Shown one piece after another: positions 1 through 4,475 of a stretch of DNA of 8,683 nucleotides. The stretch spans positions 1 through 8,683 of the forward strand of contig JALSIF010000303.1 of NCBI GenBank assembly GCA_026981635.1, written 5' to 3'. Position 1 is the first letter of the stretch. The number at the start of each line of letters is the position of its first letter. Source of the DNA: JALSIF01 sp026981635 [NCBI: bacterium]. Lineage in GTDB: Bacteria; 4484-113; JALSIF01. Below the pieces are notes generated by a model. The model was not told the origin of the DNA, ran no database searches, and worked only from the letters and a program-made list of their open reading frames with translations. A program made the position numbers and the translations under genes.

Positions 1-1140
1 CTCGCGGATGAGCTTCCTGCCCTGCTCGGTGGGCAGGAGGCATAGGGTATGGGGGGAGGCGGGGACGGGCTTGACCAGCTCCCTGGTGATGAGCACCCGC
101 GCGGGAGCCTCCTCCCCCCGGGGAGGACAATAAGGAAGCTTGCCCTCAGTGTCATCTCCCCAGCCCTCGGCAACCAGCTCAACCGCTTCCAGTGGTAGGT
201 GGTGGCGGCGGGCAAGGCGGCGCATGGTGCTCCGGTAGGTGCGCACAAAATGGGCCACGGCAGCGGAGTCGCCCTCCTGCTTCGCCCTGTCCCGATGGGA
301 CCTTCCTCCTCCGCTAAAGATCATGCCCAGACTGTCCAGGGGAAGTCGGTATGAGGCCAGCAGGCGCCAGTTTTCTGTCTCCCCGCTAAGGCCAATACGT
401 GCTCCGAGCTCCACCCGGCGTCCAACGGGCGGGCCGATGCCCACTCCCAAGGTGAGAAAGTTTCTCCGCGGGCCGCGGGTGGAGGAGGTGTTACCGCCCA
501 GTTCCACCAGCAGGGCGGCCTCCCGACGGATGGGCAGCTCCACCGCCCCGCTCCAGATGAGGATGTCGTCCTGGCCGGAGACCTCGCTCTCCTTCTGGAG
601 GATGCCCATGCCCAGGTTTAGGGTGTAGCTTCCCCTGCCCAGGGGACCGGACATGGCCAGTCGGCCAAACAGGTCGGTCTTGTCCTCCCCCAGGCCCTTG
701 TTCTTGTCCTCGCTCGGTACCTTGGCGGAGAGGATGACGGCGTAGGCGGGGCGGCCCTCCTCCCACCCCACCGGGCCGGAAAGGGCGATCTTGGTGGACA
801 GTTCAAAGCGGGAAAGGCCAAACTCGTTTCGCTCAAGGCTTTTGGAAAAGCGCTTGGCGGTGGCAATGCGGATGCCAAACTCGGCCCTTCCCCCCAGCCC
901 CAGCACCAGATCAAGGCGGGGAAGGGTGAAGAGGCGGTCGCCCTGGGGGAGGTGGGCATAGTCCAGGGTGAAGATACCCTGACCGCCGGGGTAGGGGAAG
1001 AGCCAGGCCGGCTCGGCATCAAGGATTCCTCGGGCCAGGGCAGCAGAGGGGAGGATGGTAAGGAGAAGCAGGGCTAGGATGGGAGCCAGCAGGCTCGGAA
1101 GCAACTTTGCGGGCAGAGGGGTTGGACCAGACCCTGCCAT
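1..1140 (-). CDS. Secreted beta-barrel-like protein with C-terminal extension (3' end beyond window)
   Basis: An open frame of 380 codons runs from an ATG at 1140 to the left edge without a stop, so the C-terminus is missing. Residues 1-36 look like a signal peptide: a hydrophobic core around 13-31 ends in a helix breaker and an Ala-Leu-Ala site, with cleavage expected after A36. Residues about 50-270 consist of short segments with alternating hydrophobic and polar residues, rich in Gly and aromatic residues and separated by charged turns, as in outer-membrane barrels of the phenol-degradation MetA-like kind. Residues 285-380 differ: a basic, helix-like segment (about 291-325) is followed by a Pro-rich part ending in a TEQGRKLIRE-type stretch. 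I do not recognise this region. The gene begins one base after the stop of the degenerate phosphoesterase and lacks a clear Shine-Dalgarno, so translational coupling is likely. Barrel identity is inferred from the pattern; the substrate is unknown. Confidence 0.75.
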   Translation of the reverse strand, partial: MAGSGPTPLPAKLLPSLLAPILALLLLTILPSAALARGILDAEPAWLFPYPGGQGIFTLDYAHLPQGDRLFTLPRLDLVLGLGGRAEFGIRIATAKRFSKSLERNEFGLSRFELSTKIALSGPVGWEEGRPAYAVILSAKVPSEDKNKGLGEDKTDLFGRLAMSGPLGRGSYTLNLGMGILQKESEVSGQDDILIWSGAVELPIRREAALLVELGGNTSSTRGPRRNFLTLGVGIGPPVGRRVELGARIGLSGETENWRLLASYRLPLDSLGMIFSGGGRSHRDRAKQEGDSAAVAHFVRTYRSTMRRLARRHHLPLEAVELVAEGWGDDTEGKLPYCPPRGEEAPARVLITRELVKPVPASPHTLCLLPTEQGRKLIRE

Positions 1141-1141
1141 C

Positions 1142-1891
1142 CTACTGGGGGAAGTCGGCCAGTTCATGGTCGCCTCTCACTCTGGGGGTCTCCACCGTCA
1201 CCATCTCCAGTTCGGGGTAGAGCAGGCAGATGATACGGCCTCCCCAGGGAGCTCCACCGTCCAGGAATATGCATCGGTTCACCCAGCGGCTCTCCCGGGT
1301 GGGGGCACCGGCGCAGACTACGCGCTCCACCCCGTTCCACTCCCATACCCACTCCAGGGTGGGACCTGAGGATCCCTTTCCCTCCTCCGTGCCGGCTCCC
1401 CCGATGCAGAGCTGGCGGGTCTTCATGGTCAGGGGCTGGGCGAGGCTTTCCGGGGTCAGGGCGCGGTGGACCGCTATCAGCTCTCCCCCCAGCACGCGGA
1501 AAGGGGGGAGGGAGGCGAAGAAACGCTCATACTCTGCCAGGAAGCCAGCCAGCTCCTTCTCCCCCATGCGGCGAAGCTCTGGCCACAGGCCGGCCAGCTC
1601 CTCCTCGGGACGGTCAAGCCTGCCCAAGGCGTAGCGGAAGAGCTTCTCCTCCACCTCTCCGGGGACCACCACCGCGATGCCCTGCCGGCTCCACTCCATG
1701 AAGAGGCCAAGGAGTTTGAGGCTGCCCTCACCGGGCCCCACGATCCCTCCCAGGCTGACTGGTGTCCTTCCTGGAGGGGGGACCGGTACCTTCGGATCGG
1801 AAAGGTCGTAGCCGAGACGCTCAACAAGTTCCATGAACTGGTCGTGGAAACCGTAGAGGGGGCCGAAGATGTGGTAGTGCTCGCGGGGCAC
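1142..1891 (-). CDS. Degenerate PPP-family metallophosphoesterase (PrpE/ApaH-like pseudoenzyme)
   Basis: This 249-residue protein keeps the outline of bacterial PPP phosphoesterases such as PrpE and the bis(5'-nucleosyl)-tetraphosphatases, but loses the metal site. By eye, GDxHG becomes GPLYG (10-14), GDxVDRGP becomes GGIVGPGE (48-55), GNHD/E becomes GEVE (78-81), and GHTP becomes AGAP (194-197). The Val-x-His motif survives as IAVHRAL (H142), and the C-terminal D-T-G-C-x-F-G-G motif survives partly as DGGAPWGG (211-218), followed by the usual strand with LLYPELEMVTVE. The framing residues (FHDQFMELVERLGYD, PG before the third motif, WVNR before the last) are family-like, so the fold is probably intact while two-metal catalysis is probably lost. 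The start is GTG at 1891, the only start candidate between an in-frame TAG 15 bases upstream and the first motif; no good Shine-Dalgarno is seen. It is read with the barrel-like gene, one base apart. Ligand binding or scaffolding is possible but unproven. Confidence 0.8.
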   Translation of the reverse strand: MPREHYHIFGPLYGFHDQFMELVERLGYDLSDPKVPVPPPGRTPVSLGGIVGPGEGSLKLLGLFMEWSRQGIAVVVPGEVEEKLFRYALGRLDRPEEELAGLWPELRRMGEKELAGFLAEYERFFASLPPFRVLGGELIAVHRALTPESLAQPLTMKTRQLCIGGAGTEEGKGSSGPTLEWVWEWNGVERVVCAGAPTRESRWVNRCIFLDGGAPWGGRIICLLYPELEMVTVETPRVRGDHELADFPQ

Positions 1892-1959: not shown

Positions 1960-1983
1960 TTTTTTACCATGCTGTGCTAATAT
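1955..1983 (+). promoter_or_regulatory. Candidate sigma-70-type promoter for the receiver-like gene
   Basis: TTACCT (1955-1960) and TAATAT (1978-1983) are separated by 17 bases and lie in the only AT-rich patch of the gap. Matches to the consensus are 3 of 6 and 4 of 6. Transcription would begin near 1990, leaving less than 10 bases before the ATG at 1998. This would exclude the GTG at 1974 as the start. Confidence 0.3.
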
Positions 1984-1997
1984 CCCCTGCCATCTGG

Positions 1998-2651
1998 ATG
2001 GGTGCCAAGGGAGCACTGCTTGTGGTATCCGGCGATGTGGGGGTGGCAGAGCTCACCACCGGCTACCTGGAGCCCCTCTTCGGCCGGGTGGTGCTGGTCT
2101 CCACCGCCGCCGAGCTGTTGCGCGCGGGGGGAAAGTTCTCCCTGGCGGTGGTGGACGATTCGGCCATTGAACTTCTTCCCCGCCTCACCGAGCAGGTGGG
2201 CCCCGCCACTGCCCTGCTTCTGCTCCAGGGGGAGGAGAGCGAGGTGGAGATTGAGCGGCGGGCGCGCAAGGTTGAGGTGGTGCTGGCCAAGCCCTTCAGC
2301 CGGCTGGGGCTGGTGGCGGCCGCCCTCAGCGCCCTGGCCCAGGCCAGCCGCAGGGCAGAGGGGGCAGTGCGGCGACCCCTCTCCAACCTGATGGAACAGC
2401 TCAGCCAGCCCCTCACCGTCCAGGTCCTGCTGCTGGAGCACCTGATGGAGCTTGTCCGCGAGCGGGGGGCGGACGAGGAGGTGGTGGCCCTGATTGAGCA
2501 GCTCAGGCAGGCCACCCGGGAGCTCTCCGGCCTCATTGAGCGGGTCTTCAGCCAGGGGGAGAACCTGGCCCCCTACTTCTCGCCCCTGCTCTTCCCCGAG
2601 GACAAGCGCCGGGCCCGCCCGCTCCTCAGCACCGGCGAGGGGAGGCAGTAG
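1998..2651 (+). CDS. Degenerate receiver domain plus histidine-kinase-like dimerisation helices, no ATPase
   Basis: A 217-residue cytoplasmic protein counted from the ATG at 1998; an in-frame GTG at 1974 would add eight residues. Residues 5-115 have the alternating strand and helix order of a response-regulator receiver: strand 1 GALLVVSGD, strand 3 SLAVVDDS with D53/D54 at the phospho-acceptor position, strand 4 ALLLLQGEE, and strand 5 VVLAKPFSR with the conserved Lys-Pro (K98-P99). The acidic pair after strand 1 is replaced by Ser-Gly, and the usual Thr/Ser after strand 4 by Gln. Residues about 126-190 resemble the two helices of a histidine-kinase dimerisation domain: MEQLSQPLTV aligns with the S-H-E-L-R-T-P-L box and places E133 where the phospho-acceptor His should be. 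No ATP-binding domain follows; the end is a short Pro-rich and charged tail. It is followed 35 bases later by the EthD-family gene. The domain calls are by eye; a role as a non-catalytic dimerising regulator is inferred. Confidence 0.7.
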   Translation: MGAKGALLVVSGDVGVAELTTGYLEPLFGRVVLVSTAAELLRAGGKFSLAVVDDSAIELLPRLTEQVGPATALLLLQGEESEVEIERRARKVEVVLAKPFSRLGLVAAALSALAQASRRAEGAVRRPLSNLMEQLSQPLTVQVLLLEHLMELVRERGADEEVVALIEQLRQATRELSGLIERVFSQGENLAPYFSPLLFPEDKRRARPLLSTGEGRQ

Positions 2652-3025: not shown

Positions 3026-3394
3026 TCAGTCGCCCTCGTCCTCGGCCAGCATCAGCCGATTTCCATCCAGGTCGTAAAAGATTGCGCTGGTGGAGCCCCA
3101 GTCGGTCTGCTGGGGCGGGGTGGAGAACTTCACCCCGTTGGTCACCATGCGCTGATAGTCCTCATTTATGTTGTCCGAGGTGATAACGGCGAGGGGGAAG
3201 AGGTCCCGCGAGGGGTCCTTGGGCGGGACCCGCTCGCCGCCGTGGGAGAGGAGCAGGCGGCACCCCCCCAGGTTGAAGACGGCATAGCCGGGGGTGACCG
3301 TCTCAGGCTCAATGAGGAGCTTCTCCCGATACCACTCAACCGCCTCCTGCAAGTTGGAGACGAAGACTACGACCTTGCTCAGCCGCTTAATCAT
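3026..3394 (-). CDS. VOC-superfamily (glyoxalase/bleomycin-resistance fold) protein
   Basis: A 122-residue single-domain protein begun at the ATG at 3394. It opens with a strand and helix of the VOC kind (KVVVFVSNLQEAVEWYREKL), has a central strand pair (YAVFNLGGCRLLLSHGG), and ends with the family signature D-L-D-G-N-R-L-M-L-A-E. The His that opens the fold in many metal-dependent members is replaced by a Val, while the terminal Glu remains, so metal binding and activity are uncertain; it could be a lactoylglutathione-lyase relative, a dioxygenase relative or a binding protein. The frame stays open upstream to a TTG at 3661, but those 89 extra residues are low-complexity Gly/Pro/Arg sequence unlike the family, and a TATAAT lies just before the ATG, so the short form is preferred. 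It is convergent with the EthD gene. Confidence 0.85.
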   Translation of the reverse strand: MIKRLSKVVVFVSNLQEAVEWYREKLLIEPETVTPGYAVFNLGGCRLLLSHGGERVPPKDPSRDLFPLAVITSDNINEDYQRMVTNGVKFSTPPQQTDWGSTSAIFYDLDGNRLMLAEDEGD

Positions 3395-3400
3395 AAAGGA

Positions 3401-3406
3401 ATTATA
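3401..3406 (-). promoter_or_regulatory. TATAAT -10 element placed for leaderless transcription of the VOC gene
   Basis: Read on the minus strand, a perfect TATAAT ends six bases before the ATG at 3394. Transcription from it would start at or next to the start codon, giving a leaderless mRNA. No convincing -35 is seen 16-18 bases further upstream, and the six-base leader TCCTTT contains no Shine-Dalgarno. The AT-rich patch at about 3386-3425 stands out from its GC-rich surroundings. Confidence 0.5.
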
Positions 3407-3544
3407 CAACCTGGCCAGTTTATTCCCGCCGACGCTCCGATCATGCCACCCCCAACCTGGCCGCCCCCGCACACCGGGCCGACCGGCCAGAAAGGGGCCA
3501 CTTTTTTCTTCATCGGGGATGTTTTCTCTCTTTTCCATCACGGA

Positions 3545-3562
3545 GCGGCCATTTTTGGCCGC
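3545..3562. repeat. Perfect 7-bp hairpin with TTTT loop
   Basis: GCGGCCA (3545-3551), a TTTT loop and TGGCCGC (3556-3562) form a perfect hairpin. Its right arm is one copy of the local TGGCCGCC repeat, so other copies could pair with the left arm as alternatives. No T run directly follows on either strand. Confidence 0.5.
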
Positions 3563-3606
3563 CTGACCCCCGGGTTTTGGCCGCCCCTTCTGGCCGCCTT
3601 TTGGCC

Positions 3607-3621
3607 CCTCCCGGGGGGAGG
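3607..3621. repeat. GC-rich 6-bp hairpin
   Basis: CCTCCC (3607-3612), a GGG loop and GGGAGG (3616-3621) form a short, very stable hairpin in the middle of the repeat-rich gap. There is no T run, so intrinsic termination is not indicated. Confidence 0.35.
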
Positions 3622-3676
3622 CGGCGGGGCGGGCCGCCACCTCCCCCCAAGGTAGGGGCAAGTGTCAAGCCCTGTT

Positions 3677-3713: not shown

Positions 3714-4475
3714 CTAGGGGCAGTTTATCTCCGGGTCTCCCAGGCCGATCTGGTCAACGGCCTCAATTATCAGCCTACCTCCCTCACCGTAGAGGCGCCA
3801 GTAGGCCACCGTGTAGTAGTCGGGGCAGTCCAGGTTTCTGGCCGGGCTCCACTGGCCGACGAAGGGGTTTGCCTTGAGGAACTGCCGGGTCTCCTCGTCG
3901 GTGAGGACGCGGATGTAGAGGTCGCCGGGGGAGGGTTCCTCACTGAAGAGCCTCACCGGGCGGTGCTGGAAGAGGTTGATGGGGGGGAGGGGAACGGTTC
4001 CCGTTTCGCTGTAGTCGTACCTGCGATAGAGCTCCTCCCAGGTGAGCCTGGTGGGGTCGTCGCCGGCCATCATCGCCTTCTTGATCAGGTGGGAGGTGTA
4101 GATGGGGTACATGCGCACCTCCATCACCTGGCGCTTCTCCAGCTCGGTGAGCCTGTCCCAGGTGAGGCTTGGGTCCTTGGTGGGGGTGATGTCGGCGAAG
4201 GGGTTGAAGAGGCCGGAGCCCTCCACCAGTCCGCGGAAGGTCTGGAGGGCCTCCTGGTAGAGCTTGTCGTCGCTGGGGTCAATGTTGTACCAGTAGTTTC
4301 CCTCCACCTGCTCGCTGGCGCCGGAGGAGCTTCCCGCCCCAGGGCTTGAGGAGCCGGCCACGGCGGCCTGGCGGCTCATGGCTGTCTCCGTCCCCGACGG
4401 CTGGCAGGAGAGGGACAGCATGATTACTCCCAGCAGGACTGAGAAGAGAAAGATGGTCTTCCCTCCCTTGCTCAT
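3714..4475 (-). CDS. Putative lipoprotein of unknown function
   Basis: A 253-residue protein of a family I do not recognise. Residues 1-23 form a lipoprotein-type signal: KGGK, then a hydrophobic core, then LSLSC with the acceptor Cys at C24. The residue at -3 is Ser rather than the usual Leu, so the lipobox is slightly atypical. Residues about 34-57 are a Ser/Gly/Ala linker, as often follows the lipidated Cys. The rest (60-253) is a mixed globular domain rich in Tyr, Trp and Pro, with two cysteines (C217 and C252) that could form a disulfide outside the cytoplasm. The start is well supported: on the minus strand AGGAGG and AAGGAG lie 9 and 4 bases before the ATG. It is probably monocistronic, with divergent pyrF upstream and the hairpin-rich gap downstream. 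Confidence 0.8.
   Translation of the reverse strand: MSKGGKTIFLFSVLLGVIMLSLSCQPSGTETAMSRQAAVAGSSSPGAGSSSGASEQVEGNYWYNIDPSDDKLYQEALQTFRGLVEGSGLFNPFADITPTKDPSLTWDRLTELEKRQVMEVRMYPIYTSHLIKKAMMAGDDPTRLTWEELYRRYDYSETGTVPLPPINLFQHRPVRLFSEEPSPGDLYIRVLTDEETRQFLKANPFVGQWSPARNLDCPDYYTVAYWRLYGEGGRLIIEAVDQIGLGDPEINCP

Follow-up and report, generated by a model that had tools for sequence, protein, structure and literature searches.

A putative PPP-family pseudophosphatase of the PrpE/Pnkp-phosphatase branch in a bacterium known from metagenome sequence

The phosphatase domain of Clostridium thermocellum Pnkp (PDB 4j6o) is part of a larger protein that also has kinase and ligase domains, and in PPP phosphoesterases two further histidine ligands complete the metal site beyond the residues of the family signature. 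This signature, GDXHG - GDXVDRG - GNHE, comprises the residues that coordinate metal and the proton-donor histidine, and members of the family from kinetoplastids (trypanosomatids) in which catalytic residues are substituted, several of them on long branches, are described as pseudophosphatases (PMC2175518, in excerpt). The complex described in PMC4411300 was set aside as a comparison because, according to the excerpt of that paper, its phosphatase domain and that of Pnkp-Hen1 belong to different superfamilies. We found no bacterial PPP pseudophosphatase among the papers listed by searches of open-access PMC, which is no proof of absence. The metallophosphoesterase fold is reused for protein contacts in inactivated calcineurin-like domains such as Vps29 and the B subunits of eukaryotic DNA polymerases, which belong to a different subfamily from the PrpE/Pnkp branch and to which the protein reported here is likened in general terms.

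The window analysed here spans the whole of contig C303 (8683 bp), which belongs to a 1.75-Mb genome in 317 contigs, estimated to be 85% complete, from a bacterium known solely from metagenome sequence. On its minus strand, positions 1142-1891 hold a gene for a 249-aa protein, a putative pseudophosphatase, that family matches and an AlphaFold model assign to the PPP fold and its PrpE/Pnkp-phosphatase branch. The protein resembles the Pnkp phosphatase domain 4j6o in fold, in the order of its motifs and at 27-29% identity, but it is a lone domain that has lost five of the six metal ligands, whereas the motifs of 4j6o are intact. Like PrpE, a bis(5'-nucleosyl)-tetraphosphatase (NF010148), it stands alone and matches the 245-position model over its full length, yet it scores far below the cut-off of that model and lacks active-site residues. 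It shares with the kinetoplastid PPP proteins the family and the substituted catalytic residues and, with several of them, the long branch; those proteins are eukaryotic, and the likeness is one of description, not substitution by substitution (PMC2175518, in excerpt).

Loss of PPP catalytic residues is thus known from kinetoplastids (PMC2175518, in excerpt), and what would be new is such a loss in the bacterial PrpE/Pnkp branch, where the ligands are kept in all of the homologues that we aligned, which come from bacterial genomes apart from one viral contig. A wholesale, frame-preserving loss would show that the PPP fold can be reused free of metal in bacteria, and would caution against calling such genes tetraphosphatase or Pnkp on the strength of homology. 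The case is a single example so far, pending an orthologue.

A lone PPP-fold domain

The open reading frame starts with a GTG at 1891 and ends with a TAG at 1144-1142, and its 249 codons (253 from stop to stop) are uninterrupted, as the earlier note had stated. By eye, no clear Shine-Dalgarno sequence precedes the GTG and the protein carries no signal peptide; secretion was rejected on the same inspection, as a signal sequence is absent ahead of the first strand. The region up to the divergently transcribed gene (1892-1997; start of that gene at 1974 or 1998) contains a promoter-like match at 2008-1979 oriented towards the PPP gene and, at 1942-1955 on the plus strand, one that resembles a terminator, both of them consensus matches only.

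Homology to the PPP family spans the full length of the protein and is far beyond chance, in line with the assignment made from the letters alone. The PrpE model NF010148 matches residues 5-235 (E 2.4e-25, 89.5 bits), and the bacterial Pnkp model TIGR04075 matches residues 6-237 (E 7.6e-26, 90.5 bits) through its phosphatase part, model positions 182-415 of 851. Among PDB sequences, 4j6o is the sole match at E <= 1 (residues 6-235, E 5.1e-18), and a Pfam search returned no family at E <= 1. The scores lie well below the family cut-offs of 340 bits for NF010148 and 750 bits for TIGR04075, so the protein is neither a PrpE equivalog nor, as a lone 249-aa frame, a bacterial Pnkp. Its mean identity is 27.3% to a 19-row Bacillota PrpE clade vs 29.8% to the remaining rows of the alignment.

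Structure prediction with superposition, which the earlier note had proposed as a check, recovered the PPP fold. An AlphaFold2 model from an alignment of 82 sequences (the window protein plus 81 homologues) reached pLDDT 88.3 and pTM 0.88. Note that prediction from the sequence alone gave pLDDT 34.9, uninformative for or against the fold, and that the modelled fold is therefore partly imposed by the homologue alignment. Both Foldseek (E 1.2e-15) and VIA-align (Z 28.1, 234 aligned residues, rmsd 2.8 A) ranked 4j6o first, followed by ApaH, a putative diadenosine tetraphosphatase (2qjc) and lambda phosphatase, and lower by PP1, PP2A and PP5. Full-length homology together with the fold predicted from this homologue-based model places the protein in the PPP/PrpE-Pnkp-phosphatase fold family.

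Catalytic motifs in the window protein and its relatives

We then read the catalytic site against 93 aligned homologues, about 30% identical to the window protein, with residues labelled by what we take to be CthPnkp numbering and with residue roles presumed from the same enzyme. The altered motifs are those described in the earlier note. Motif 1 (1850-1864, minus strand; residues 10-14) reads GPLYG for GDxHG with the loss of two ligands, columns 11 and 13 being D and H in 93/93 homologues. Motif 2 (1727-1750, minus strand; residues 48-55) reads GGIVGPGE for GDxVDRGP, so that the bridging Asp and the Arg are gone (column 49 is D in 93/93, column 52 D in 92/93 and column 53 R in 93/93). In motif 3 (1649-1660, minus strand; residues 78-81), GEVE stands for GNH(D/C/E) and the Asn ligand and the catalytic His are lost (column 79 N in 93/93, column 80 H in 91/93). 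Motif 5 (1301-1312, minus strand; residues 194-197) reads AGAP for GHTP and lacks a His ligand, column 195 being H in a fraction of 1.0 of the 93.

Two motifs have kept their key residue. Motif 4 (1460-1471, minus strand) reads VHRA for AHAG and retains the metal-ligand His (column 142, H in 93/93), and motif 6 (1253-1261, minus strand) reads DGG for DTG with its Asp in place (column 211, D in 93/93). Overall, five of the six metal ligands have been exchanged (D187>P, H189>Y, D233>G, N263>E, H376>G) and so have three further residues, D236 (>G), R237 (>P) and H264 (>V), while H323 (residue 142) and D392 (residue 211) remain, i.e. 2 kept and 8 lost among the 10 catalytic-site columns examined. 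The claim that nearly every metal ligand had been replaced thus stands for five ligands and fails for the third His, in the VxH motif, and the loss of catalytic residues likewise spares the Asp that is conserved in the C-terminal DTG motif. The combination of GDxHG, GDxVDRG and GNH(E) with two His ligands that marks an active PPP metallophosphatase is absent, and the protein, as judged from alignment and model, is a phosphatase fold without its catalytic residues, the description of a pseudophosphatase. Sequencing error was rejected as the origin of these differences, since the eight catalytic substitutions lie within one uninterrupted frame and are flanked by conserved residues (Gly).

In the homologues, D187, H189, D233, R237, N263, H323, H376 and D392 are invariant (93/93), D236 is D in 92/93 and H264 is H in 91/93. 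All six ligands are present in every aligned homologue, including the sole one found in a class-mate; note that 93/93 is no unbiased census, because the genome-contig rows are the best 80 of 503 confirmed relatives and were retrieved with two peptide patterns, one over motif 1 (with the window's own letters allowed) and one over the C-terminal D(T/G)G motif. The other rows are 12 from a whole-genome search and one viral contig. That search found a match in 14/385 genomes, one of them the window's own; 12 of the other 13 were aligned, and the 13th (L016), which fell below the phmmer cut and is outside the 93, has intact motifs by a profile reading. Among plasmids, 16 records match at 26-31% identity and were judged by annotation: polynucleotide kinase-phosphatase (12), metallophosphoesterase (1) or no feature (3). 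Searches of phages and of viral contigs with the window protein gave no match.

Within the class, of which 10 genomes were searched and none other is listed with the same family code, a PrpE-like gene occurs in two, the window's own genome and G001, and the catalytic motifs of the G001 gene are intact. That gene (L003 1444-2487, minus strand; 347 aa from a GTG) lies in a different neighbourhood, next to mraZ- and mraW-like genes by eye. An orthologue with the same substitutions was not found among the class genomes, the 385 genomes, the genome contigs, the viral contigs or the phages. In the genome contigs, 25 stretches matched the peptide patterns for orthologues and none was confirmed as a relative, these patterns being exact 8-mers from which, by our estimate, orthologues below ~60% identity could escape. 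The earlier note had named orthologues with intact motifs as a sign of recent decay or sequencing error; the motifs of the homologues are indeed intact, but at ~30% identity these are no orthologues that would reveal recent decay.

Constraint, decay and possible function

We consider it fairly probable that the product is a folded, cytosolic protein with a PPP fold, derived from a metallophosphoesterase of the PrpE/Pnkp-phosphatase type, that its two-metal centre has been lost and that it is maintained for binding. The idea of a maintained pseudoenzyme, put forward in the earlier note, draws support from the open frame, the hydrophobic core and a neutral simulation, and is weakened by the lack of a second copy with the same substitutions among the collections searched. 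At ~30% identity, 52/60 family-hydrophobic columns are still hydrophobic in the window protein, as are 28/36 of those in which the residue is substituted (binomial p 1.5e-5, given that 42% of the residues of the protein itself are hydrophobic), and 12/18 family glycine columns are kept. In the simulation, which started from the gene itself with 400 copies and allowed substitutions only, no indels, 1/400 copies was free of stops at 37% identity left and 0/400 at 24%, while 31.5% were still open at 90% identity (0.05 substitutions per site).

The opposing account is that of a decaying gene, which would have lost catalysis recently, still lacks a stop in its frame and encodes a functionless protein. 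Since no orthologue shares the losses, a recent release from constraint after a long constrained divergence is conceivable; a short neutral phase of this kind could leave the frame open, as in 31.5% of simulated copies at 0.05 substitutions per site, and part of the core conservation may predate the catalytic loss. The patchy occurrence of the PrpE-like gene in 2/10 class genomes fits decay as well, and in a quick tree the branch of the window protein is 8.47 long vs a median of 0.27, a length also compatible with relaxed constraint; its placement has no support and no ancestry is drawn from it. A preference for catalytic over other conserved sites among the losses is borderline in the alignment: 2/10 catalytic columns are kept vs 37/71 other columns at >=85% conservation (Fisher p 0.090), 31/58 at >=90% (p 0.085) and 27/46 at >=95% (p 0.038), and at 100% conservation 2/8 vs 12/20 (p 0.21). 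Non-catalytic conserved positions are thus also often lost (27/58 at >=90%), as decay would predict. Codon adaptation of the gene (0.568) is the lowest of 11 window genes compared, next to the downstream gene at 0.578, with a reference set made up of 5 of the 11, which favours those genes; it exceeds the values of three ORFs that overlap the gene in other frames (0.324-0.468). The GC content by codon position, 0.71/0.46/0.80, looks coding-like, as does 0.79/0.41/0.74 in an opposite-strand ORF; it discriminates poorly and proves little, since the overlapping other-strand ORF at 1466-1900 has a similar pattern and only codon adaptation (0.468) separates the two. Against decay stand the rarity of open frames that drift by substitutions would leave at this divergence, the hydrophobic character of the substituted core columns and a downstream gene placed only 1 nt away. 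Given the open frame, the retained core and the simulation, we regard decay as unlikely.

Two other accounts keep the protein tied to catalysis. It might still be an enzyme with a rebuilt site, in which His142 and Asp211 together with nearby Glu residues (in GPGE and GEVEE) hold one metal, or in which catalysis is metal-free. His142 and Asp211 are indeed the residues kept among the 10 catalytic columns, Glu, a residue able to bind metal, stands in place of the Asn ligand, and a review warns that catalytic residues may have migrated in some pseudoenzymes (PMC10211241, in excerpt). However, Gly, Pro, Val or Tyr now occupy the positions of the bridging Asp, of both ligands in motif 1, of the catalytic His and of the motif-2 Arg, which leaves a rebuilt site, in our judgement, with a rather small chance. 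Still less probable is a regulatory subunit of an active paralogue, for which the precedent is the AdoMetDC prozyme of T. brucei, reportedly a regulatory subunit paired with such a paralogue. The window's own genome holds no second PrpE/Pnkp homologue (protein search at E <= 1; PrpE HMM at E <= 0.01), and the single Metallophos (PF00149) match in that genome belongs to a different gene, on contig C92; the protein is therefore probably no regulator of an active copy, with the caveat that in an assembly 85% complete the absence of a paralogue is no proof.

As no paralogue was found that it could regulate, the PPP-fold protein, if maintained, is best read as binding a ligand or a protein partner. 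A folded protein without the two-metal centre of its presumed PrpE/Pnkp-type ancestor should be unable to carry out PPP-type hydrolysis of phosphate esters, and it would be kept because it binds something. Most likely this would be either a ligand of the ancestral class, a nucleotide or RNA end that sits in the groove now free of metal, or a protein partner. Its role could be that of a sensor or adaptor co-expressed with the outer-membrane-like protein encoded downstream. More specifically, and as a speculation to which we give little weight, it may be an adaptor of one sparsely sampled lineage whose metal-free groove still recognises dinucleotides or RNA ends and which adjusts the amount or state of the co-transcribed outer-membrane protein.

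Genomic context

Immediately downstream on the minus strand, positions 1-1140 encode a probable exported outer-membrane (beta-barrel-like) protein, whose gene starts with an ATG at 1140-1138 and runs off the contig. At the junction, TAGGATG, this ATG lies 1 nt past the PPP stop, with an in-frame ATG at 1167 as another possible start, and the gap of 1 nt between stop and start suggests that translation of the two genes may be coupled; they are probably co-transcribed. The N-terminus of the downstream protein is hydrophobic and signal-peptide-like by eye. The coupling to a secreted barrel-like protein that the earlier note had asserted is thus borne out as adjacency, but the barrel identity depends on a match to PF13557 below the cut-off (E 0.0071).

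Searched with the translation of window positions 1-1137, i.e. without the first Met, 2/9 other class genomes hold homologues of the downstream protein (E 3.6e-35 and 4.0e-19), and these adjoin a gene that is dprA-like by eye. No PrpE-like gene was found in these two genomes at E <= 0.01, so that the pairing of the PPP and barrel-like genes has one occurrence, and none in the other class genomes searched. Contig C201 (L104 14554-14698) is identical to window positions 1-145 over 126 bases, after which 6/19 bases differ, and the two contigs are probably neighbours in the assembly graph with strain variation; in C201 the frame of the downstream gene continues for 14 more codons and is followed by a gene that is FtsY-like by eye. 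A weak match to the C-terminal part of the downstream protein at L102 1501-1719 (G000:C6:1887-2105; E 0.0015, 32%) contains 3 TGA codons and is possibly a decayed copy or a chance match.

The divergent gene at 1974-2651 (plus strand) encodes a protein whose N-terminal part is receiver-like by eye, followed by a sub-threshold HisKA match (E 0.0057); an ATPase domain was not found. A Met occupies, by eye, the position expected for the phospho-acceptor His, placed by what we take to be the HisKA phospho-acceptor motif. At E <= 0.001 the protein is matched in none of the 9 other genomes of the class, it has no convincing relative in the PDB (best E 0.94), and it is possibly a second degenerate signalling protein next to the PPP-like one.

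Two further genes of the window lie on the minus strand. The one at 3714-4475 encodes a 253-aa protein with no match at E <= 1 in Pfam, NCBIfam or PHROGs and an N-terminus that, by eye, resembles a lipoprotein signal. The product of 3026-3661 gives weak matches, far below the cut-offs, to FosB (fosfomycin-resistance) models, and it contains a Glyoxalase/VOC domain (Pfam E 2.1e-15), preceded in the listed start by ~90 unmatched N-terminal residues.
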